IMG/VR virus record: IMGVR_UViG_3300029957_000006
Span: 1-64,000 of that record
Length of the DNA: 64,000 bases
DNA from: a virus
Strand: one strand, 5' to 3'
Shown: piece by piece, positions 51,692-63,362 of the stretch
How the letters are laid out: every line of letters begins with the position of its first letter
How positions within the stretch are numbered: position 1 is the first letter of the stretch
Made by a program: the position numbers and the translations under genes
Notes under the pieces: model-generated
Database searches by the model: none
Seen by the model: only the letters and a program-made list of their open reading frames with translations
What the model was told of the DNA's origin: nothing

Positions 51692-51718
51692 AATCCCAAC
51701 TATTTGATAGTCGGGATT
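51692..51718 (-). terminator. Terminator of the prs-thg1 operon
   Basis: AATCCC (51692-51697) with GGGATT (51713-51718), inner ACTA/TAGT; overlaps the thg1 stop codon; TTTTTAC follows on the minus strand. Confidence 0.7.
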
Positions 51719-52512
51719 AGATTGTAAAGATATTCTTTTTCTTTTGTAAATATCGGAGAATTATAATCTGGTAACCATTTGGCTCGTTGTACTGGAATGC
51801 CATTTTCACCATCTAATGTTACAATATTTCGTTTGATGATCGTTCCACGTTTATACTTCGTCTTATAGTCATTCCAATTGATACCCTTTTGAGAAAATAA
51901 CATCTCTTGCTTTTGACTACTTGATTTTCCTTCAAGTTGCTTGTGTGGGAAATATGCATCACTAGCCATGCTTACACTATTACGTGTACAGTCTTGTTGT
52001 CTCCAGATAAAATAATTGGATACTTCACGGAAGTCTGGGATGATATAAACACGTGAATCAAATACAGCATCAATCTCAGCAAAATCACCACTAATAAGCT
52101 TGCTTGCAAGTTCTTCTTTGCTATATTTAAACATAGCCATTAATTGAAGCATTTTCTTATTGAAAGCAGCTGTTACTTTTGATGCTGAAATACTACATAG
52201 CTTTTGAATCTTACCATCAAAGATAAGCTCTGATTCAATGTTTTCAATATCTGTAAACATCAAGCTGATTTCATCAGATTGAGTATAAGCAAACTTAGGA
52301 TTTAAGTATTTACATAATTCGATTGTAGCAAAATCCATTACATTTGATAAATTATCATCAAATGGTTTATTGAACATCTGTGTGTATTTGCTAAATCCTT
52401 TACCATCAAGTCTCATTATGACATAAGTTCTAGCTGGTACCTTTATATCATAACATGCTTCATACGCTCTCATGCGTGAAGACAAGTCAGTTTTATTTGT
52501 TTTCTTTTTCAT
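51700..52512 (-). CDS. thg1: Thg1-like 3'-5' polymerase
   Basis: 270 residues, full length. RLDGKGFSKYT (34-44) and YTQSDEISL (76-84) hold the metal Asp residues; FDSRVY (151-156) and YFIWRQQDCTRN (167-178) complete the family signature. Thg1 adds G to the 5' end of tRNA-His; Thg1-like proteins repair 5'-truncated tRNAs by reverse-direction polymerisation. Could mend tRNAs cut by host anticodon nucleases (inference). Last gene of the MgtC-prs unit. Confidence 0.93.
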   Translation of the reverse strand: MKKKTNKTDLSSRMRAYEACYDIKVPARTYVIMRLDGKGFSKYTQMFNKPFDDNLSNVMDFATIELCKYLNPKFAYTQSDEISLMFTDIENIESELIFDGKIQKLCSISASKVTAAFNKKMLQLMAMFKYSKEELASKLISGDFAEIDAVFDSRVYIIPDFREVSNYFIWRQQDCTRNSVSMASDAYFPHKQLEGKSSSQKQEMLFSQKGINWNDYKTKYKRGTIIKRNIVTLDGENGIPVQRAKWLPDYNSPIFTKEKEYLYNLIPTIK

Positions 52513-53293: not shown

Positions 53294-54346
53294 TTATTTG
53301 TTGTGAGACCTTAATGCCTCGTAACTTAAATTGTTATTTAATGCTGCCATTGCAAATCCAATTTGTTTAGCAACACTTATCACTCTAATCTTATCACAGC
53401 CTTTTTTAATACTTATACAAGCTGATTCATTATAATTACGTCCACATAATTGAAGATAATTTGGCTTAATCAATGAATCACTGATTATTAATTCAGTTAA
53501 TACTGACTCACCAATATTTTCAAAAGCATGACCAGATAACACACCATGACTGATAATTGCTCTTACACTTGTTGCACCAGCAGTCATAAGAACTTCAGCT
53601 GCTTTACACAATGTTCCTCCAGTATCAACCATATCATCAAGAATGATTACATCTTTACCAGTTACATCACCAATGATGATCATCTCATCAATTACATTTG
53701 CTGCTTTTCTTGTCTTATCCAACATGACATAATTGAATGCAAGATTATGATATTTCATCATTTGATCTTTCATACGTTTAACACGTTTTCCAGAACCAGC
53801 ATCTGGTCCACAGAAAACAAAGTTATGGGTTTCACCAGTAACTAGTGATTCAATATAGTCATCAAAAACAGTTTTTCCTTCAATATGTGTTACTGGAATA
53901 TTGAAGAATCCTTGAATTTGATCAGCATGCAAATCATACGTAATCACAGAAGTTGCACCACGTTGTTCAAGCATTTCAGCCATCACCTTAGCACCAATAG
54001 GACCACGTGATTGATCTTTCTTATCTTGACGTGCATAAGGAAAGTAAGGAAGGATTGGAATGATTTCTTTTGCAGCTGCACGTTTAGCAGCATCAATAGC
54101 CAATAATAGCTTCATGATTTCATCAGAAGTATTAGGACTTGATAAAATGTAAACACGTTTACCACGAACTGAATCAGTGAAATCAACACAAAGCTCTCCA
54201 TCAGAGAATTTTTGTGAATTCAAAATACCAAGTTCTACTCGTCCTTCTTTAGTAGGAGATTCTGGTTGACAAAATTGATTAGTATTATTGACAATTTCAT
54301 TTGCCAAATCAATTCTACCGTCTAATGAAAACAATAAAGAGTCCAT
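53294..54346 (-). CDS. prs: Ribose-phosphate pyrophosphokinase (PRPP synthetase) family
   Basis: 350 residues, longer than the usual 310-320. FPYARQDKK (102-110, catalytic loop), DLHADQIQGFF (138-148) and the PRPP loop DDMVDTGGT (237-245) are intact, so it should be active. Classic Prs makes PRPP from ribose-5-phosphate and ATP. In phage NAD+-rebuilding (NARP1) systems a Prs-like enzyme instead makes ADP-ribose pyrophosphate for a NAMPT-like partner, which also exists here (60664-62325). Which substrate it uses cannot be told from sequence alone. Confidence 0.9.
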   Translation of the reverse strand: MDSLLFSLDGRIDLANEIVNNTNQFCQPESPTKEGRVELGILNSQKFSDGELCVDFTDSVRGKRVYILSSPNTSDEIMKLLLAIDAAKRAAAKEIIPILPYFPYARQDKKDQSRGPIGAKVMAEMLEQRGATSVITYDLHADQIQGFFNIPVTHIEGKTVFDDYIESLVTGETHNFVFCGPDAGSGKRVKRMKDQMMKYHNLAFNYVMLDKTRKAANVIDEMIIIGDVTGKDVIILDDMVDTGGTLCKAAEVLMTAGATSVRAIISHGVLSGHAFENIGESVLTELIISDSLIKPNYLQLCGRNYNESACISIKKGCDKIRVISVAKQIGFAMAALNNNLSYEALRSHNK

Positions 54347-54573: not shown

Positions 54574-54993
54574 CTATTTTAATTTGTTTTCTAGTGTTTT
54601 TAATATAATAGAAACACCTAGTAATCCAATTGTTATGATTAAGCTTGAAAATAAATAACCAATTCCGACCAATACACCAACACTAGCTATAAACCAAATA
54701 AAAGCTGCTGATGTTACTCCAACAACCTTATCTTCATGTTTAAAAATAACTCCACCACCAAGAAATCCAATTCCTGTAATTATTTGACCAATAACTCGTG
54801 TCGGATCAACATTGTGATTGACTAAGATAAAACTTGTAGTGGTAAATAAACAAGACCCTACACAGACTAATACATGTGTTCTTATACCAGCAACCTTATT
54901 CTTCATTTCTCGTTCCCAACCAATAATAATTCCACATAAGGTGGCTACTATTAGTTTTGGAAATAAATATAAGATCAATTCTATTTCAGTCAT
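54574..54993 (-). CDS. MgtC/SapB-family membrane protein (leaderless mRNA)
   Basis: 139 residues from MTEIELILYLFPK (ATG 54991-54993, 5 nt after the -7 box). MgtC N-terminal domain: LCGIIIGWEREMKNKVAGIRTHVLVCVGS and GIGFLGGGVIF..VVGVTSAAFIWFIASVG, four membrane helices. Host MgtC tunes ATP synthase and magnesium or phosphate balance. Heads the prs-thg1 unit. Confidence 0.85.
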   Translation of the reverse strand: MTEIELILYLFPKLIVATLCGIIIGWEREMKNKVAGIRTHVLVCVGSCLFTTTSFILVNHNVDPTRVIGQIITGIGFLGGGVIFKHEDKVVGVTSAAFIWFIASVGVLVGIGYLFSSLIITIGLLGVSIILKTLENKLK

Positions 54994-54998
54994 CGACA

Positions 54999-55030
54999 CA
55001 AAGGTATGAATAATTTATCGAAATAACAAA
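54999..55030 (-). promoter_or_regulatory. Promoter of the MgtC-prs-thg1 operon
   Basis: TTTG (55027-55030), N20, TACCTTTG (54999-55006). Confidence 0.85.
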
Positions 55031-55471
55031 TTATTCAATCAAATAATCTTTATATGTCTCATTACCATATTTCACGAAACTTCTAACCAGACTACTTGAA
55101 ATATGTGGTAAAAGCCTATCAGTAAAGATACTAACCATTTGAATATCTGGCATGAGGTCTTGAAGAATATAATAATAATTGATCTCTGCTTGAAGATCAT
55201 GAGTATTTCTAAGGCCACGAATCAATGTGACTTTATTTTCACCATCACCTTGTAATTTCTTAACAACATCTGTAATCAATTCTAACTCAGTTAAAATGAT
55301 TACTTCTCTGTTCATTAAGGTTTTAGGTAGGACCCAAGAACTAGCAGCTTTATCTGGATTAACACCTCGTACTATGATGACCTTATCAAAGATTTTTTCA
55401 GCCTTTAATAATATATCGTAGTGTCCTTTATGAAAAGGATTAAAGCTTCCAGCATATATGCCTATTGTCAT
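55031..55471 (-). CDS. coaD: Phosphopantetheine adenylyltransferase
   Basis: 146 residues (family about 160). GSFNPFHKGH (8-17, nucleotidyltransferase motif), IRGLRNTHDLQAE (84-96) and ISSSLVR (124-130) are CoaD hallmarks. It joins ATP and 4'-phosphopantetheine to make dephospho-CoA, the substrate of CoaE (30808-31419). The GSFNPFH start is also seen in NMN adenylyltransferases, so a role in NAD+ synthesis cannot be fully excluded, though the IRGLR block favours CoaD. Confidence 0.87.
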   Translation of the reverse strand: MTIGIYAGSFNPFHKGHYDILLKAEKIFDKVIIVRGVNPDKAASSWVLPKTLMNREVIILTELELITDVVKKLQGDGENKVTLIRGLRNTHDLQAEINYYYILQDLMPDIQMVSIFTDRLLPHISSSLVRSFVKYGNETYKDYLIE

Positions 55472-55645: not shown

Positions 55646-56011
55646 TTATTGTTTAAGTTTTTTCCAAATTCTATCATGATACTTTGTCTTGAACTTACCT
55701 AATTCAAAACTTCCATTAAATAATATTACTTCCAAAGCTATTGGTAATTCGTTATAAAGCTTATCCCATTCTGATTTTTGTTCATCTGAATAAATTTTAA
55801 TCTCACTAGTATTCAATGGGTCAAAATCAGCTGGCTGTCCATTAAGAATAAGGTCCATAGCATCATAGATATTATTTTCACCAAATGGTGGCGCAATATC
55901 ATCACCATCATCAGCAACTCCGCTAATGATCTTTTCCTTATTCATACTCCAACGTAAGTATTTTAAAAGCTTTACGTGTTGTTCTGTTAGTTCAAATATA
56001 ATTACACTCAT
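55646..56011 (-). CDS. Hypothetical protein
   Basis: 121 residues, acidic middle (VADDGDDIAPPFGENNIYDAMDLILNG); phrase recalls phage proteins with an ADDGDDIAPPFG stretch. Function unknown. 4-nt overlap with the SET gene. Confidence 0.6.
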   Translation of the reverse strand: MSVIIFELTEQHVKLLKYLRWSMNKEKIISGVADDGDDIAPPFGENNIYDAMDLILNGQPADFDPLNTSEIKIYSDEQKSEWDKLYNELPIALEVILFNGSFELGKFKTKYHDRIWKKLKQ

Positions 56012-56304
56012 TTTTGTGGATCGTATAATGTGTAGCTGGCTGTTATTTCTTCACCAGCTTTTATTTCTCTTAATGAAATCAATCTAATAAAATCACCTTC
56101 TATTTCAACATAACAGTTTGGTTCAGTTGAATGATTGAAGAAGCCACCTAATGGTGTTCTGATATAACCATCTTGAAATCTATCATCACGAACATGTGTT
56201 ATCCCCAATAGATGTTGTGCATCTATATTATCATTTGTGAATAACCCTAGTCCATCAATTTTAGATGGTTTAATTGTCAGATATGTTGGTAATGGCTTAT
56301 ACAT
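56008..56304 (-). CDS. SET-domain protein
   Basis: 98 residues. SKIDGLGLFTNDNI (14-27), GGFFNHSTEPNCYVE (about 53-67) and LREIKAGEEITASYTLY (about 78-94) are the SET-domain motifs (SAM-binding, NHS, catalytic Tyr). Small phage SET proteins may methylate a host or phage protein; target unknown. 1 nt after the sirtuin stop. Confidence 0.82.
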   Translation of the reverse strand: MYKPLPTYLTIKPSKIDGLGLFTNDNIDAQHLLGITHVRDDRFQDGYIRTPLGGFFNHSTEPNCYVEIEGDFIRLISLREIKAGEEITASYTLYDPQK

Positions 56305-56305
56305 T

Positions 56306-57049
56306 TTAATTAGTGATTGATTCTCTGCTCATTATTTCTTTTACTACTTCAGCAACACCTTCAACTGCTTTTTTATTCACATATTGTACTTTGATCCCAT
56401 AATTATCCAAGTATTTCATTGGCGATGGATCAATGTAATAAACCTCACATTGTTCTGGAACACGTTTTACGTTATTCAGCATTGGAAGTGTATAACCAAT
56501 TTGTAGACTGGTTCCAATAATAAGTAAGATATCAGCATCAAGTATTGCTCGTGTTGCTTCAGATACACCAAATGGATATTCACCAAACCATACAATATGT
56601 GGACGTAATTGTGAACCTGTCGTAGGACACTTATCACCTAGATTGATATCATTGTAACCAATATCAATGATCGTGTCAGCTGGGCTAGATTTATGTGCAT
56701 ATAAACAACCTCTAGCCTTGGTTAGATCACCATGCAAATGAATTATGTTTGTTGATCCAGCTCGTTCATGAAGGTTATCAACATTCTGTGTTATGATTGT
56801 TACATCATAATTCTTTTCCAATTCAACAAGTGATATGTGTGCTAGGTTAGGTTCAACATCTGGTAATTGCTTTCTACGTTCATTGTAGAAATTCAACACC
56901 ATTTCACGATTCTTCTTCCAACCTTCTGGTGTTGCGACATCTTCAATTCTATAGTTATTCCATAGACCATCCTTAACATCTCTAAATGTAAGGATACCGC
57001 TTTCTGCTGAAATTCCAGCACCAGTAAAAATTGCTATTTTCTTTTTCAT
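56306..57049 (-). CDS. Sir2 family NAD-dependent deacylase (CobB-like)
   Basis: 247 residues. GAGISAESG (10-18), TQNVDNLHERAG (87-98), catalytic His in HLHG (104-107) and GSQLRPHIVWFGE (145-157) are complete. FYNERR (54-59) supplies the Tyr/Arg of class III (desuccinylase-type) sirtuins. The usual zinc CxxC pairs are not complete (GC at 114-115, KC at 140-141 only), as in sirtuins of some Bacteroidota. It consumes NAD+. Within a unit that also has CoaD and a SET protein. Confidence 0.92.
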   Translation of the reverse strand: MKKKIAIFTGAGISAESGILTFRDVKDGLWNNYRIEDVATPEGWKKNREMVLNFYNERRKQLPDVEPNLAHISLVELEKNYDVTIITQNVDNLHERAGSTNIIHLHGDLTKARGCLYAHKSSPADTIIDIGYNDINLGDKCPTTGSQLRPHIVWFGEYPFGVSEATRAILDADILLIIGTSLQIGYTLPMLNNVKRVPEQCEVYYIDPSPMKYLDNYGIKVQYVNKKAVEGVAEVVKEIMSRESITN

Positions 57050-58340: not shown

Positions 58341-58526
58341 TTATTTTATTTCAAAAAATTTTACAAAATCAGTTCTTTTCATTGATACAAATGTCGTATC
58401 ATTTCTGAAAAAGACAGTATCACCAAATGCATTTACTTCTTTTGGGACCCATGCCTTTACAACATCAATATCCAAATTTAATTCTCCTTCGTTGGCAATA
58501 CCAACACTTACAGTTTCTTTTGTCAT
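58341..58526 (-). CDS. Hypothetical small protein
   Basis: 61 residues, beta-rich; unknown. Between the HAD and deaminase genes. Confidence 0.6.
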   Translation of the reverse strand: MTKETVSVGIANEGELNLDIDVVKAWVPKEVNAFGDTVFFRNDTTFVSMKRTDFVKFFEIK

Positions 58527-58966
58527 TAGTCAATTAGAATTACTTCTACATTAGATTCTTCCAGCATTTGAAGAGCTGCTCGAAAATGCTCTCCCCATGT
58601 TTCATGTTCAACATCTGGTGTTGGTGAATAAAGTTTAATTATACCAGATTGAATAATACCTCTAGCACAATCGCTACAAGGGAACATTGTTACATACATG
58701 CTACAACCTTTTAGTGTAACACCATGTCTTGCAGCATGAAATATAGCATTTCGTTCTGCATGTTCGGTAAATAAGTATTTATGGGGTTTCACATAACGAG
58801 ATTCAACTGAATCATCACAACCTCTTGGGAAGCCATTATATCCAACTGAAATTACTATATGATCTGGATCAACAATTACAGCACCATTCTTGCGATTGGT
58901 ATCTTTACTCCATTGAGCAATATGTTTAGATAATTCAATAAATTTTAAATCCCAATGGTTTGTCAT
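58526..58966 (-). CDS. dCMP deaminase
   Basis: 146 residues. HAERNAI (about 71-77; Glu is the proton shuttle) and PCSDCARGII (about 98-107; zinc Cys pair) identify a dCMP-type deaminase making dUMP for dTMP synthesis. GYNGFPRGCDD is typical of the phage T4 type. Near-leaderless: -7 box 5 nt before the ATG. Confidence 0.9.
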   Translation of the reverse strand: MTNHWDLKFIELSKHIAQWSKDTNRKNGAVIVDPDHIVISVGYNGFPRGCDDSVESRYVKPHKYLFTEHAERNAIFHAARHGVTLKGCSMYVTMFPCSDCARGIIQSGIIKLYSPTPDVEHETWGEHFRAALQMLEESNVEVILID

Positions 58967-58971
58967 CTGTA

Positions 58972-59002
58972 CAAAGGTACTAAAAATTTTCGAATAATCA
59001 AA
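58972..59002 (-). promoter_or_regulatory. Promoter of the dCMP deaminase-to-coaD operon
   Basis: TTTG (58999-59002), N19, TACCTTTG (58972-58979). One nt shorter than the usual spacer. Confidence 0.75.
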
Positions 59003-59453
59003 TGTTTTTTTCGTAATTTACGATAGTAACATATTCACCAGCAAATTCTTCTTGAAGGATACGTTCAATAACAGTCCAATCACCTCCAGCTAATCCAGCA
59101 CCAAGCTTGGGTAGTGCAAAACGTTTACCAGTGAATTTCTGCTTCATTAAACGAAGTCCAGATCGCAATGCATTATAGTCTAGGTCCATTTCATTACGTC
59201 TACGTCCAGTATAATCATATTGGCCATAAATATTAACAATGATTGGAGTAGTGTTTTCAGTATAGGTAATGGTTCCAAGCTTTGATTTATCTCCTTTTAC
59301 CGTAGCATTATCTACAGCATAAGCTTCTGGAAATTTAGCTTTTATTTGTGGGGCAATGCCAGAACCCATCGTATTAAAGCAATTGCAACAGTGACCTATT
59401 ACGTCAAATTGTTCGGCATCTCTTACAAGATCACCAGTTATGTATGTTATCAT
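58998..59453 (-). CDS. Macro-domain protein
   Basis: 151 residues. GDLVRDAEQFDVIGHCCNCFNTMGSGIA (7-34) and LPKLGAGLAGGDW are the ADP-ribose-binding loops of the Poa1p/TARG1-like branch. These proteins remove ADP-ribose from proteins or nucleic acids or dephosphorylate ADP-ribose phosphate. The Cys-rich first loop is unusual. Same operon as NADAR and NAMPT. Confidence 0.88.
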   Translation of the reverse strand: MITYITGDLVRDAEQFDVIGHCCNCFNTMGSGIAPQIKAKFPEAYAVDNATVKGDKSKLGTITYTENTTPIIVNIYGQYDYTGRRRNEMDLDYNALRSGLRLMKQKFTGKRFALPKLGAGLAGGDWTVIERILQEEFAGEYVTIVNYEKNI

Positions 59454-59458
59454 AAATC

Positions 59459-59647
59459 TTAATTATCAAAGGCTTTTAATTGTCGTTTAATTTCATCTAT
59501 TTTAGCATTCGTAACTAGAATTAAATCACCAATATTATTTGTATCATATTGTGCTCTTGCTTCAATTAATCGATTTAATACTGCTGTTTCAATATTTAAT
59601 TGAGACTTCAAGATAATTTCTAATACGTCTTTTTGTAATCCTGTCAT
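59459..59647 (-). CDS. Hypothetical helical protein
   Basis: 62 residues, helical; overlaps the NADAR gene by 4 nt. Unknown. Confidence 0.55.
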   Translation of the reverse strand: MTGLQKDVLEIILKSQLNIETAVLNRLIEARAQYDTNNIGDLILVTNAKIDEIKRQLKAFDN

Positions 59648-60141
59648 AATAATTTTTTAATTAAAATTTCTTGTTTTATTTTCTCTCTGACTTGCATGAT
59701 TGCTTCGCCAAGCCAATTAGTTCCTTGCCATTTAGATTTATCTAAAATATCTGGATGATTTTCGTCCATACCAATTCCCCAAATACGATCTTCAGGACTA
59801 GCTTCAACGATTTCTCTATCATCGCTTTTTAATAATTCAAGTTTCATTTTTGGGTTTTGAATAAACTTAGCAAGATTTGCATCATAAACAATCTTACGAC
59901 ATACTCGATTCCAAATATCAGCATTAAAGCCTTTTATTTGACGACCATAAGCTTTTTGTTCATTTGGCTGATCAGTATTCATTATGTTGTTCAAAGCTTC
60001 ATAATCACCGAAGACTAGAGCTTTTTTAGCCATCATGTACTGTTCAGTACAATTGTATTCCACACCATCTATTGTAAATGGCGAAGGGCACCATTGACTA
60101 AAGGTGCCTCCCCAAAAGAATATGAATTTTTCTGTTGTCAT
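59644..60141 (-). CDS. NADAR-domain protein (YbiA-like)
   Basis: 165 residues. FFWGGTFSQWCPSPF (8-22), CTEQYMMAKKAL (31-42), and WGIGM (about 121) match the NADAR family. YbiA members cleave riboflavin intermediates; others remove ADP-ribose from guanine in DNA or RNA, acting as antitoxins of DarT-like enzymes. With the macro domain next door, ADP-ribose removal is likely. Confidence 0.87.
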   Translation of the reverse strand: MTTEKFIFFWGGTFSQWCPSPFTIDGVEYNCTEQYMMAKKALVFGDYEALNNIMNTDQPNEQKAYGRQIKGFNADIWNRVCRKIVYDANLAKFIQNPKMKLELLKSDDREIVEASPEDRIWGIGMDENHPDILDKSKWQGTNWLGEAIMQVREKIKQEILIKKLL

Positions 60142-60142
60142 T

Positions 60143-60658
60143 TTATTTACGTCTTAAATTAGCTTTTCTTATTGATGCTGATATCGTTTCTTCCATTGTA
60201 GAAAAGATATATGGAATGTAATTATTTCCATTTTTTTCTATTGATACCGCTTTCCACATGATATCTAAATAACCAATACGATAAGCATCATCTGGTCGGC
60301 CATAGATCATTTTTTCTGGTTCTCTACCTTGCCAAAAACCAAATTCCATATTGGTTGTTAATGCAATAAGCTCTCGTGTTCGTGGAATCCAGAACATTAT
60401 ACAATCAGCTTTTTTCAAGCCATTAAATTCCCATAATGGAATCCATGCCTTATTTTTATCCGATTCTGTTTTGCTGGTAAATTCTGGAACAATCAAGTCA
60501 CCAGTAAAACCTTGCTTTTCAAATTCTTCAATAGCTGCAAATCTCCAAGAAGTTAAATGTGGTTGATGACCTCTAACTGTTGGACCAGCAAGAAAAATTG
60601 ATGGTTTTGAAATAGTATTTATTTCAGTTTCTGATTCTTCGTATCTATGAACCTTCAT
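60143..60658 (-). CDS. Nucleoside 2-deoxyribosyltransferase-like protein
   Basis: 171 residues. IFLAGPTVRG (21-30), DCIMFWIPRTRELIALTTNMEFG (about 86-108) are deoxyribosyltransferase-fold motifs with the expected Glu in NMEFG. May act on nucleosides or NAD-like ligands. Directly downstream of NAMPT. Confidence 0.75.
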   Translation of the reverse strand: MKVHRYEESETEINTISKPSIFLAGPTVRGHQPHLTSWRFAAIEEFEKQGFTGDLIVPEFTSKTESDKNKAWIPLWEFNGLKKADCIMFWIPRTRELIALTTNMEFGFWQGREPEKMIYGRPDDAYRIGYLDIMWKAVSIEKNGNNYIPYIFSTMEETISASIRKANLRRK

Positions 60659-60663
60659 ACAAA

Positions 60664-62325
60664 TTATTGTTTTGCTGGTGCATACTCAATCAACAATGCT
60701 TGTTTAGTTGACATGATTTCAGCACTTGCTGGATAATTGTGATTTTCTGTTGTTCCAAGACTCAAAGGCATACTTGCCATTTGAGATTTAATATTTGCTT
60801 TGATAATCAAGAAGTCATCATCTTGTCCTTCACCAAATGGTTTATAAATGTTGGTACCATCGAAATAAGTAACCATTGCATCTTCACCTGATTCATGTTC
60901 AAAACAAATGGTTTTCTTAGCTCCCAATGCTTCTTTACTTCTGAGCAATTTGAAAGGACCTGGTAATGTTCCTTTACCAATTGTTTCGCTGAATTTCACA
61001 ACTGGACGATCTTCAGAACCAACAGATGATAAAGCATATTTTGCTGATAAGTTATCACGTTTCAAATTATTACGCAACCCACCACCTTGTCCGAATAATC
61101 CCCAAGTGTAGAATGCATATCCTTTTGCAATGAGTGCATCGATTTCTTCAAGAATATCTTCGCAAGATTTTCCATCACCGTCCAAGAAGTGAAATAATGT
61201 ACCACATTTCCAAGAACCAGTCTTGGTTGTCATTTCTGTGAACAGACCATTTGCAACTGAAAGATCGCAAATTTCAATGATTTGATCAAGTGTTGTATAT
61301 CCTTCTTTTGAAGAATCAGGACGAGCAACAACTACTTTACCATTACCTTCTTTGAGACTTCTCAAAGCTAGTGGCAATAACATATTTTTTACGGAGTTTT
61401 TAGCATCATAACAATCATCAACCATTGATACAATTTCATGGTTCTTACATGAGTTATAGATCGCTTCGTAACAATCATTTTCTTTTGTATATGATTGTAC
61501 GTTTCTGTGAGCAAGAGCATTTACACTTGAGAAGATGCCAATTGCTTCACCAGAATTTTTCCATGCTTGGTAAGCACCAGAAAACGTATCTGTACCACCA
61601 AAGGTGTATAAGTGAACCATTCCAAGTTCTTCTGATTCTTCAAGTGTCATACCAGCTCTGTCACCAAAGTCAGTAATCGTAATGCTGGCCCAGAAATTAA
61701 GCATTTCTTCTGACATATCTGGATCAACTTTAAGAATGCGTTCTTTGATACGCAATAAGAAGTGTTCATCTTGTGTAACACGTTCAGTAGTACTCCAAGT
61801 TTGGAGAATTTTAGATTCAAACCAAGCACCCAACACACCAAGTCCATCAACATCAGAGATGATTTCAATAGCTGGTTCATTTGGATAAATGACGCTTCCT
61901 TCACGCACAGCACGAATTTTAATTGGGGGACGGCCACCGAATTCATCAACAACTCTGCGCCAGATTTCTTCTGGGAATTCATATTCTTTGAATCCTTCCA
62001 TTGTAACCTTAGCATGAGCTAGGAAACGGATTGTTTCATCGATCTCAGCGTGTGTGATTGGTTCGTAGAATAATTTTTCAAGAATACGTTGGAGACCAAT
62101 AAAGATGATACGATTGTCAGCTTTACTGTAAATATGAGGATTAATCGTATTGAGATTTTTTCTGAATGTTACATAATAAACCGATTTTTCTTTAGCCTCT
62201 GGGCTTTCGAATTTATTAGAACCAATGGTATAAGCATCACCAAGCAATAGACGTGGTGTTTTATAAACTTTACGTTTTGGCAATACAACCGTTTTAACTT
62301 GTTCTGTTGTTGAGACTTCGTTCAT
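60664..62325 (-). CDS. nadV: Nicotinamide phosphoribosyltransferase family (NadV/NAMPT-like)
   Basis: 553 residues. Motifs: LLLGDAYTIG (27-36), ITDFGDRAG (217-225), GGTDTFSG (243-250), VDDCYD (302-307), RPDS (335-338), GDG (383-385) and GQGGGLRNNLKRD (412-424). It joins nicotinamide to PRPP giving NMN; in the phage NARP1 route a relative (Namat) joins nicotinamide to ADP-ribose pyrophosphate and gives NAD+ directly. A Prs-like partner is at 53294-54346. The sequence is diverged from human NAMPT, so either is possible. Confidence 0.9.
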   Translation of the reverse strand: MNEVSTTEQVKTVVLPKRKVYKTPRLLLGDAYTIGSNKFESPEAKEKSVYYVTFRKNLNTINPHIYSKADNRIIFIGLQRILEKLFYEPITHAEIDETIRFLAHAKVTMEGFKEYEFPEEIWRRVVDEFGGRPPIKIRAVREGSVIYPNEPAIEIISDVDGLGVLGAWFESKILQTWSTTERVTQDEHFLLRIKERILKVDPDMSEEMLNFWASITITDFGDRAGMTLEESEELGMVHLYTFGGTDTFSGAYQAWKNSGEAIGIFSSVNALAHRNVQSYTKENDCYEAIYNSCKNHEIVSMVDDCYDAKNSVKNMLLPLALRSLKEGNGKVVVARPDSSKEGYTTLDQIIEICDLSVANGLFTEMTTKTGSWKCGTLFHFLDGDGKSCEDILEEIDALIAKGYAFYTWGLFGQGGGLRNNLKRDNLSAKYALSSVGSEDRPVVKFSETIGKGTLPGPFKLLRSKEALGAKKTICFEHESGEDAMVTYFDGTNIYKPFGEGQDDDFLIIKANIKSQMASMPLSLGTTENHNYPASAEIMSTKQALLIEYAPAKQ

Positions 62326-62327
62326 GG

Positions 62328-62660
62328 TTATTGATTTTTAAAATTAATATACGTGATTTTGATATTGTGTTCTTGTGCAAATTTAATTTCTTCTTGTACC
62401 CCAAGTGATCCTTCCCAACCATCAACCATTAAGACATGCATTTCATTACATAGTATAAGTAAGTCAAAACTTAATTTACACCAGAAATTAAAGTCACTTG
62501 GAAGTTCAGCATGTTGAAGGATTGTTACACCACTAGTTACTGGTGATATACAACTGATACCATCTTTTAAAAGCTTAGCTGAGTATTGAGATATAGATTT
62601 GACTCTGTATTCAATTACAGCCTTGTTTTTATCAGAATATGGTATTGATAGAAATATCAT
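62328..62660 (-). CDS. DUF1937-like (SLOG/deoxyribosyltransferase fold) protein
   Basis: 110 residues. IFLSIPYSDKNKAVIEYRV start, LCNEMHVLMVDGWEGSLGVQEEIKFA (about 71-96) matches the DUF1937-type nucleotide-binding fold (Glu in the GVQEEI helix). Heads the NAMPT unit. Confidence 0.7.
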   Translation of the reverse strand: MIFLSIPYSDKNKAVIEYRVKSISQYSAKLLKDGISCISPVTSGVTILQHAELPSDFNFWCKLSFDLLILCNEMHVLMVDGWEGSLGVQEEIKFAQEHNIKITYINFKNQ

Positions 62661-62716: not shown

Positions 62717-62911
62717 TTAACTTTTCTGTTTTGATCCTCTATTGTTATAATATACCACCCTTAATTCTTCTATTTTTTCTATAACTTCCGTTAACTTTTC
62801 CTTTTCATTTTTTGATAAAAGACTTGATTTACTTAATTTAATAAGATTGCCTTTTGTACCATTAATGGAAGCATAAATATGTTTTCGATGATCTGTATAT
62901 GTTTTATTCAT
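62717..62911 (-). CDS. Hypothetical helical protein
   Basis: 64 residues, basic helical; unknown. Overlaps the SLOG gene by 8 nt. Confidence 0.6.
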   Translation of the reverse strand: MNKTYTDHRKHIYASINGTKGNLIKLSKSSLLSKNEKEKLTEVIEKIEELRVVYYNNRGSKQKS

Positions 62912-63362
62912 ATGCGTTTACCATTCTTTTATTCTGTGATTCAGCATATTGGATGCAATTCTTGGTTCCACCACTACTCCCATCAAACATTGCCAGTAAA
63001 ATATCACAATTATCAACCATCCAAATATTTCTTTTTTGCATGTATTCTACACTATAATCATCCATACCAGACACATTAACAACCTCTTGTGCCTTATCTA
63101 AAAGGTATTGATTATAAGCTTTGCTTTTATCGCTCCAAACCTTAGCTTGATCAGTGAATGGAATTGCTGCAATGAGGGGGATTTCTAAATTGATAGCTGC
63201 TTGAGCTAGTGCTTGATCCCAACCTAAAGCCATCCCTGAGATAACCTTACTGGCTTTGAGACCCTTTAACCATTTCTCGGCTATTGTGACTAAGCGATCA
63301 AAATTGGCTTCAGTATAACCACCCAATTTATCAGGTCTATGTCCAGTGCCAGCTATTATCAT
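62904..63362 (-). CDS. SLOG-family (DprA/YpsA-like) nucleotide-binding protein
   Basis: 152 residues. GTGHRPDKLGG (5-15), VISGMALGWDQALAQAA (about 40-56), and CDILLAMFDGSSGGTKNCIQYA (about 117-138) form the SLOG Rossmann site. Such proteins bind nucleotide-derived ligands, including NAD-linked signals. Function unknown. Confidence 0.8.
   Translation of the reverse strand: MIIAGTGHRPDKLGGYTEANFDRLVTIAEKWLKGLKASKVISGMALGWDQALAQAAINLEIPLIAAIPFTDQAKVWSDKSKAYNQYLLDKAQEVVNVSGMDDYSVEYMQKRNIWMVDNCDILLAMFDGSSGGTKNCIQYAESQNKRMVNAYE

Follow-up and report, generated by a model that had tools for sequence, protein, structure and literature searches.

Why would a virus encode a macro-domain protein and a NADAR protein next to a nicotinamide phosphoribosyltransferase (NAMPT)? 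This question is raised by the window analysed here, a DNA stretch of 64,000 nucleotides that represents positions 1 to 64,000 of the 124,454-base record IMGVR_UViG_3300029957_000006. An initial annotation had placed the three genes in one operon and had proposed that the phage protects its nucleic acids from host ADP-ribosylating defences, while NAMPT and ribose-phosphate pyrophosphokinase (Prs) restore the spent NAD+. The macro and NADAR genes are indeed present according to Pfam, NCBIfam, PHROGs and predicted folds, which all concur.

On the minus strand, the genes are arranged in the order NAMPT (60664-62325), a nucleoside 2-deoxyribosyltransferase-like (NDT-like) gene (60143-60658; PF15891, 32.8 bits, cut-off 30), NADAR (59644-60141), an ORF of 62 aa termed orf62 (59459-59647) and macro (58998-59453). 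With just 1-5 nt or a small overlap between neighbours, they are likely to form a single operon from NAMPT to macro, so that the annotated operon is supported by packing. Macro and NADAR are neighbours and not strictly adjacent, as they are separated by orf62, which overlaps the NADAR stop by 4 nt, ends 5 nt short of the macro gene and gave no match in NCBIfam or PHROGs. Matches to promoter- and terminator-like patterns did not exceed the frequency seen in shuffled sequences.

Downstream of macro, the same strand carries genes for a dCMP/cytidine deaminase (58526-58966; PF00383, 81.4 bits), kept in part of the syntenic islands, a CobB-like sirtuin (SIR2, 56306-57049; PF02146, 149.6 bits), a SET-domain protein (56008-56304), a phosphopantetheine adenylyltransferase-like protein (CoaD-like, 55031-55471; TIGR01510, 89.2 bits, cut-off 103.3), an MgtC-family protein (54574-54999), Prs (53294-54346) and Thg1 of the tRNA-His guanylyltransferase family (51700-52512), which recurs in relatives. 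On the other side of NAMPT, also on the minus strand, lie genes for a DUF1937/DUF4406 protein (62328-62660; PF09152, 45.4 bits), a recurrent partner in NAD+ islands, and for a YpsA-type SLOG domain protein (62904-63362; PF06908, 37.5 bits, cut-off 27.7). The DUF1937 gene, here beside NAMPT, is found between NADAR and Namat in the distant NARP1-type loci L162, L173, L175 and L183.

The macro-domain protein (151 aa) matched PF01661 (27.9 bits, cut-off 22, E 2.5e-6) and PHROG 335, annotated as "phosphatase" (171.5 bits). The best fold matches of its predicted model (pLDDT 84) were TARG1, DarG, Poa1 and BT1257 (TM 0.64-0.70), and BT1257 was the closest PDB sequence. In the alignment, H21, N24 and Q78 were equivalent to His24, Asn27 and Gln85 of the SCO6735/BT1257 subclass, with Gln78 in the position of DarG Lys80 and TARG1 Lys84, and the long mobile loop aligned with BT1257 without gaps and at the same length. 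From these residues and the loop, and not from a tree, we assign the protein to the SCO6735/BT1257 subclass of the ALC1 class. Identity to the subclass is only about 26% (to a BT1257-like protein), compared to 54% between BT1257 and SCO6735 themselves (PMC9411070), and the phage NAD+ island context also sets the protein apart from them. Among the relatives, the L027 macro has Met in place of the Q and Gln in place of the H, and a PDB search with the L183 macro returned no match.

The NADAR protein (165 aa) matched PF08719 (174.1 bits, cut-off 35.1) and TIGR02464 (159.3 bits, cut-off 73.7), a riboflavin N-glycosidase model that also includes NADARs with other shown activities. Its model (pLDDT 96.7) best matched 8bau, a NADAR with ADP-ribose (TM 0.84). 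E33, K40, E113, D118 and W121 aligned with E43, K50, E125, D130 and W133 of the P. nicotianae protein, and the presence of Glu113 at the E125 position places the protein with the YbiA type (Glu), rather than with the DarT1-linked (Asp) or T4-type (His) NADARs. Both proteins thus look like intact ADP-ribosyl hydrolases, judging from their active sites and predicted folds. Phage NADAR genes (OQ504960.1, MT939486.1 and others) are often labelled "GTP cyclohydrolase (II)", apparently a mislabel that has been carried over.

Neither protein resembles the antitoxin of a known DarT system closely enough to be assigned to one. The macro protein scored 42.7 bits against the DarG model NF048014 (cut-off 250) and has Gln instead of the catalytic Lys80, and hence does not qualify as DarG. 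The NADAR protein shares the catalytic Glu/Lys set and the fold with the DarT1-linked NADAR of E. coli C7, and its Lys63, invariant in 14 sequences, equals the Lys115 that C7 NADAR needs against DarT1 in cells (PMC11543638). However, it differs from this NADAR by Glu instead of Asp at the key position, by the absence of the positively charged N-terminal DNA-binding extension of DarT1-linked NADARs (the 165 aa align from residue 12), and by the lack of a DarT partner anywhere in the record, and hence does not qualify as a DarT1-linked antitoxin.

Could the pair nevertheless remove the ADP-ribose that DarT-type defences of the host attach to phage DNA or RNA, with NADAR acting on guanine, macro on thymine, and the NAD+ genes only covering the loss? 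The initial annotation had taken both families to remove ADP-ribose from guanine or thymine, which is correct within limits: all tested NADARs hydrolyse guanine-ADPr only, in DNA or RNA in vitro (PMC11125620, PMC11833690), and only some ALC1-class macrodomains act on thymine-ADPr (PMC11125620, PMC11833690, PMC9411070). Hydrolases specific for G and T would be complementary, and Lys63 of NADAR fits such a role. The macro active-site set (Gln78, Asn24, His21, long loop) is that of SCO6735, in which the Gln is essential and which hydrolyses thymidine-ADPr both in vitro and in cells, saving the latter from DarT (PMC9411070). We have therefore dropped the idea that Gln at the catalytic-Lys position means no DNA activity, and consider a nucleic-acid activity of the macro protein possible on sequence grounds.

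Several observations point the other way. T4 gp30.3, a phage NADAR, and YbiA hydrolysed guanine-ADPr in vitro, but did not protect cells from DarT1 (PMC11125620), and the present NADAR is devoid of the DNA-binding extension. Ser occupies the macro position at which DarG Lys29 and SCO6735 Lys34 contact DNA, and the net charges are 0 (macro) and -2 (NADAR), with mostly negative orthologues, although Ser and the neutral-to-negative charge are weak arguments against a nucleic-acid target. Finally, macro and NADAR are paired mainly where NAD+-rebuilding genes occur (see below). Because NADARs act on guanine-ADPr and SCO6735 acts on thymine-ADPr, this explanation is a live rival, even if we regard it as rather unlikely.

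The NAD+-rebuilding genes themselves were characterized by alignment, motifs and trees. NAMPT (PF18127, PF04095) is divergent, with 143 bits against an NCBIfam cut-off of 405, but alignment to human and Xcc Nampt indicated that the catalytic His and the nicotinamide-binding residues are kept. Since NAMPT and Prs often mean Namat and Adps, we considered NARP1, which was refuted by motif and tree. The motif GGGLRNNLKRD is of the Nampt type, the selectivity-clamp motif GSX..TRD of Namat (PMC12774641) is absent, and the tree separates Prs (NF002320, 306.3 bits, cut-off 297; TIGR01251, 272 bits) with a support of 100 from the 15 Adps-like proteins encoded next to Namat.

The missing step would be provided by a gene just past the window, about 2.5 kb upstream of NAMPT (record 64847-65803, minus strand), which encodes a putative NMNAT-Nudix protein of 318 aa. 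PF01467 is above cut-off, HxGH (HEGH) and SGTEVR motifs are present, and the C-terminal Nudix core reads REFSEETGG, preceded by an atypical Nudix box. The best NCBIfam models were those for bifunctional NMNAT/Nudix proteins, even though the score of 41.7 bits is far below the cut-off of 397. Nearly all island relatives, including LR745206, a 634,780-base phage, have a homologue (46-65% identity) upstream of NAMPT. Together with Prs and NAMPT, this gene predicts a full nicotinamide-to-NAD+ route that is not NARP1 but of the NARP2 type, the salvage type with NAMPT (NadV) and NMNAT-Nudix (NadM). The annotated restoration of NAD+ by NAMPT and Prs is hence supported by sequence, and the case is stronger than it appeared within the window.

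The CoaD-like protein had been a candidate for the NMNAT; it was rejected on the basis of family scores, and its best PDB matches were all PPAT. The NMNAT-Nudix gene was found outside the window. The CoaD-like gene recurs, for example in the L015 island (L015:11647-12093), in which no NMNAT-Nudix gene was seen within 10 kb. A GIY-YIG endonuclease-like ORF on the opposite strand, possibly a homing gene (record 64237-64866, plus strand, equal to L030:2238-2867; assigned by eye), separates the NMNAT-Nudix gene from the remainder of the island. Further away (record about 73919-76732, L030:11920-14733), a reverse-transcriptase-like ORF, likewise assigned by eye, adjoins three paralogous ORFs and may be part of a diversity-generating retroelement.

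In several syntenic relatives (L009:8382-10001, L012, L013, L014 and L027), the NAMPT slot of the island is filled by a classic NAMPT (500-540 bits) that is only 22-25% identical to the one in the window. That one syntenic slot can hold NAMPT types of such low identity suggests that the function is selected for.

A set of 185 loci was reduced to 71 viral NADAR lineages (clusters at 90% identity). A NAMPT-family gene was located within 5 kb of NADAR in 29 of the 71 lineages and at 5-10 kb in none; the split for lineages with full flanks was 21 versus 1 (P 1e-5, like all P values given here only a guide, since lineages share ancestry and were best-scoring matches). For macro, NAMPT or Namat was within 5 kb in 31/69 lineages, and at 5-10 kb in one more. 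Among the 29 lineages with a NAMPT-family gene, 20 had macro within 5 kb of NADAR, compared to 4 of the 42 without (P 3e-7); in the Namat subset, this applied to 7/11 lineages (P 0.0005). As it recurs in many other viral contigs, the NADAR-macro neighbourhood is not due to chance.

The 29 lineages comprised 18 of Nampt type and 11 of Namat type. NMNAT-Nudix accompanied 17/18 of the former and 1/11 of the latter, and SIR2 11/18 and 0/11, respectively, supporting the split into two pathways. The same NADAR and macro families thus adjoin two different NAD+-rebuilding pathways, in varied gene orders such as NMNAT-NAMPT-NADAR-Macro-SIR2-Prs, Prs-Macro-NADAR-Namat, Prs-Namat-NADAR-Macro, Prs-Macro-Namat and Namat-Prs-NADAR-Macro. 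On the NADAR tree, the pathway label changed 12 times, but with low support, and well-supported branches force only 1-3 changes per label.

The association is not exclusive. No NAMPT-family gene was found within 5 kb in 42/71 NADAR and 38/69 macro lineages, and there was no NAD+ island around the NADAR or macro genes of three cultured phages (Staphylococcus G1, Erwinia pEa_SNUABM_12 and Shewanella 1/40), suggesting that both families have other roles as well. Conversely, NAMPT and NMNAT-Nudix occur without NADAR or macro nearby in LR745206 and L006.

The counts also bear on the sirtuin. If active, the CobB-like enzyme would release nicotinamide and O-acyl-ADP-ribose, which the macro protein might clear, with NADAR acting on another small molecule, such as a damaged riboflavin precursor, and neither protein on nucleic acid. 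A sirtuin gene was within 5 kb of macro in 16 of the 20 Nampt-type macro lineages, O-acyl-ADP-ribose is a substrate of TARG1, a member of this macro class (PMC9411070), and NADAR passes the riboflavin N-glycosidase model. However, this model spans NADARs of other activities, we noticed no genes for riboflavin in the examined region, and macro and NADAR are kept in the Namat-type lineages, where sirtuin was near in 0/11. The absence of sirtuin from all of these weakens a specific tie between macro and sirtuin, and we consider this explanation highly doubtful.

Other sources of ADP-ribosylated substrates were sought in 12 phage records, where absences are weak evidence because the records may be fragments. 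An ADP-ribosyltransferase of the phage itself was rejected as the adduct source, with DarT in 0/12 records (a count that covers phages and not hosts) and ART-PolyVal above cut-off in 1/12; the ADPrib_exo_Tox search matched nowhere and is hence uninformative on absence. Clean-up of KptA by-products was discarded as the main role, as KptA was found in just 1/12 records.

In a bacterial control set, a NAMPT-family gene was within 5 kb in 5/80 NADAR loci, all five of Namat type with an Adps-like neighbour. In Flavobacterium piscis (L273:2926-13489), one plus-strand cluster runs from an NrtR-type Nudix regulator through Adps-like, PARG, adenylosuccinate synthetase-like, NADAR, Macro-ARH fusion, Gln-type macro, KptA and phosphoesterase genes to Namat. 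The hydrolases of this cluster differ in their substrates, but have a common product, ADP-ribose, which is what Adps uses. Separately, an NMNAT-Nudix profile match lay within 5 kb in 27/80 bacterial NADAR loci, and a Nudix-type gene is often beside bacterial NADAR (L202, L207, L216 and other Paenibacillus loci), at some loci together with a TARG1-like macro with Lys.

We propose that macro and NADAR belong to an NAD+-rebuilding island of the phage, in which the ADP-ribose that they release is remade into NAD+, the best supported of the readings, to which we give an even chance. Defences of the host that act as NADase or by ADP-ribosylation, or else the sirtuin of the phage, would consume NAD+, so that nicotinamide and ADP-ribose adducts build up. 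Macro and NADAR would hydrolyse the adducts to free ADP-ribose, candidates being guanine-ADPr (NADAR), thymine-ADPr (macro), O-acyl-ADP-ribose, other soluble ADP-ribose compounds and protein-ADPr. The Nudix domain of NMNAT-Nudix would convert ADP-ribose to AMP and ribose-5-phosphate, Prs would turn the latter into PRPP, NAMPT would combine PRPP and nicotinamide to NMN, and the NMNAT domain would complete NAD+. In relatives with NARP1, ADP-ribose would be recovered into NAD+ directly. The scheme builds on what can be read from the sequences (the genes, their families, packing and catalytic residues, and the conservation of the surroundings), and adds the presumed enzyme activities, a preference of the Nudix domain for ADP-ribose and the feeding of the cycle by the hydrolases.

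If NADAR and macro formed a recycling set, one would expect to find them paired chiefly beside NAD+-rebuilding genes, as in the 20/29 versus 4/42 lineages above. There is also a precedent: RyDEP, encoded in the NARP1 operon of mycobacteriophage DyoEdafos, releases ADP-ribose, which Adps and Namat turn into NAD+, and so feeds its own operon (PMC13232231). RyDEP itself is unrelated, a glycosidase with an RyR domain and with cADPR isomers as its substrates, whereas the island described here would combine predicted NADAR and macro hydrolases with a NARP2-type route. The confidence given to recycling and that given to the other readings are not exclusive, because the readings overlap and hydrolysis of nucleic-acid adducts would also yield ADP-ribose.

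In a further explanation, recycling is an incidental effect and the pair destroys or soaks up the soluble immune signals (cADPR isomers, ADPR, IAD) of Thoeris-like defences, as RyDEP does beside NARP1 (PMC13232231). According to a proposal of Iyer et al. (PMC9503650), soluble ADP-ribose signals are what the Macro, NADAR and SLOG proteins of phages act against, and a SLOG gene lies inside the island. However, no macro or NADAR enzyme that cleaves cADPR isomers was found in the literature searched, and we judge this role to be improbable.

Compared to known systems, the parts of the proposed ADP-ribose recovery and several of their pairwise associations are not new. Iyer et al. (2022) already noted NADAR beside NadM/NadV in phages, and the clustering of NAMPT, NMNAT-Nudix and Prs with NADAR beside them resembles this salvage system (PMC9503650); it differs here in that the set regularly includes a Gln-type macro and a sirtuin and that two very different NAMPT types fill one slot. 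Like NARP1 (PMC12774641, PMC13232231), which NADAR and macro flank elsewhere in phages and bacteria, the island would rebuild NAD+ from nicotinamide, but it encodes an NMNAT, a NAMPT devoid of the Namat clamp and a Prs that does not belong to the Adps group. Two findings appear to be new, as we saw no mention of them in the NARP1 papers searched: NADAR and a Gln-type macro are common to NARP1 and NARP2-type islands, and a bacterial cluster joins NARP1 with several enzymes that release ADP-ribose. De Souza and Aravind (2012) may already have described some of this bacterial neighbourhood.

NADAR and macro proteins are common in phages, where their role is largely unexplained. Their presence beside two chemically different NAD+ pathways suggests a testable reason, namely that ADP-ribose, the product of both, serves as raw material for NAD+. 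If this is true, de-ADP-ribosylation and the restoration of NAD+ would be joined as means of counter-defence. Bacterial systems for testing it are available in the loci of Paenibacillus and Flavobacterium. More tentatively, phages and bacteria such as Flavobacterium may possess a general ADP-ribose recovery system that undoes defensive ADP-ribosylation and NAD+ depletion, in which swappable NADAR, Gln-type macro, PARG and ARH enzymes feed either NARP1 or a NARP2-type pathway, so that spent NAD+ is recovered from the damage.
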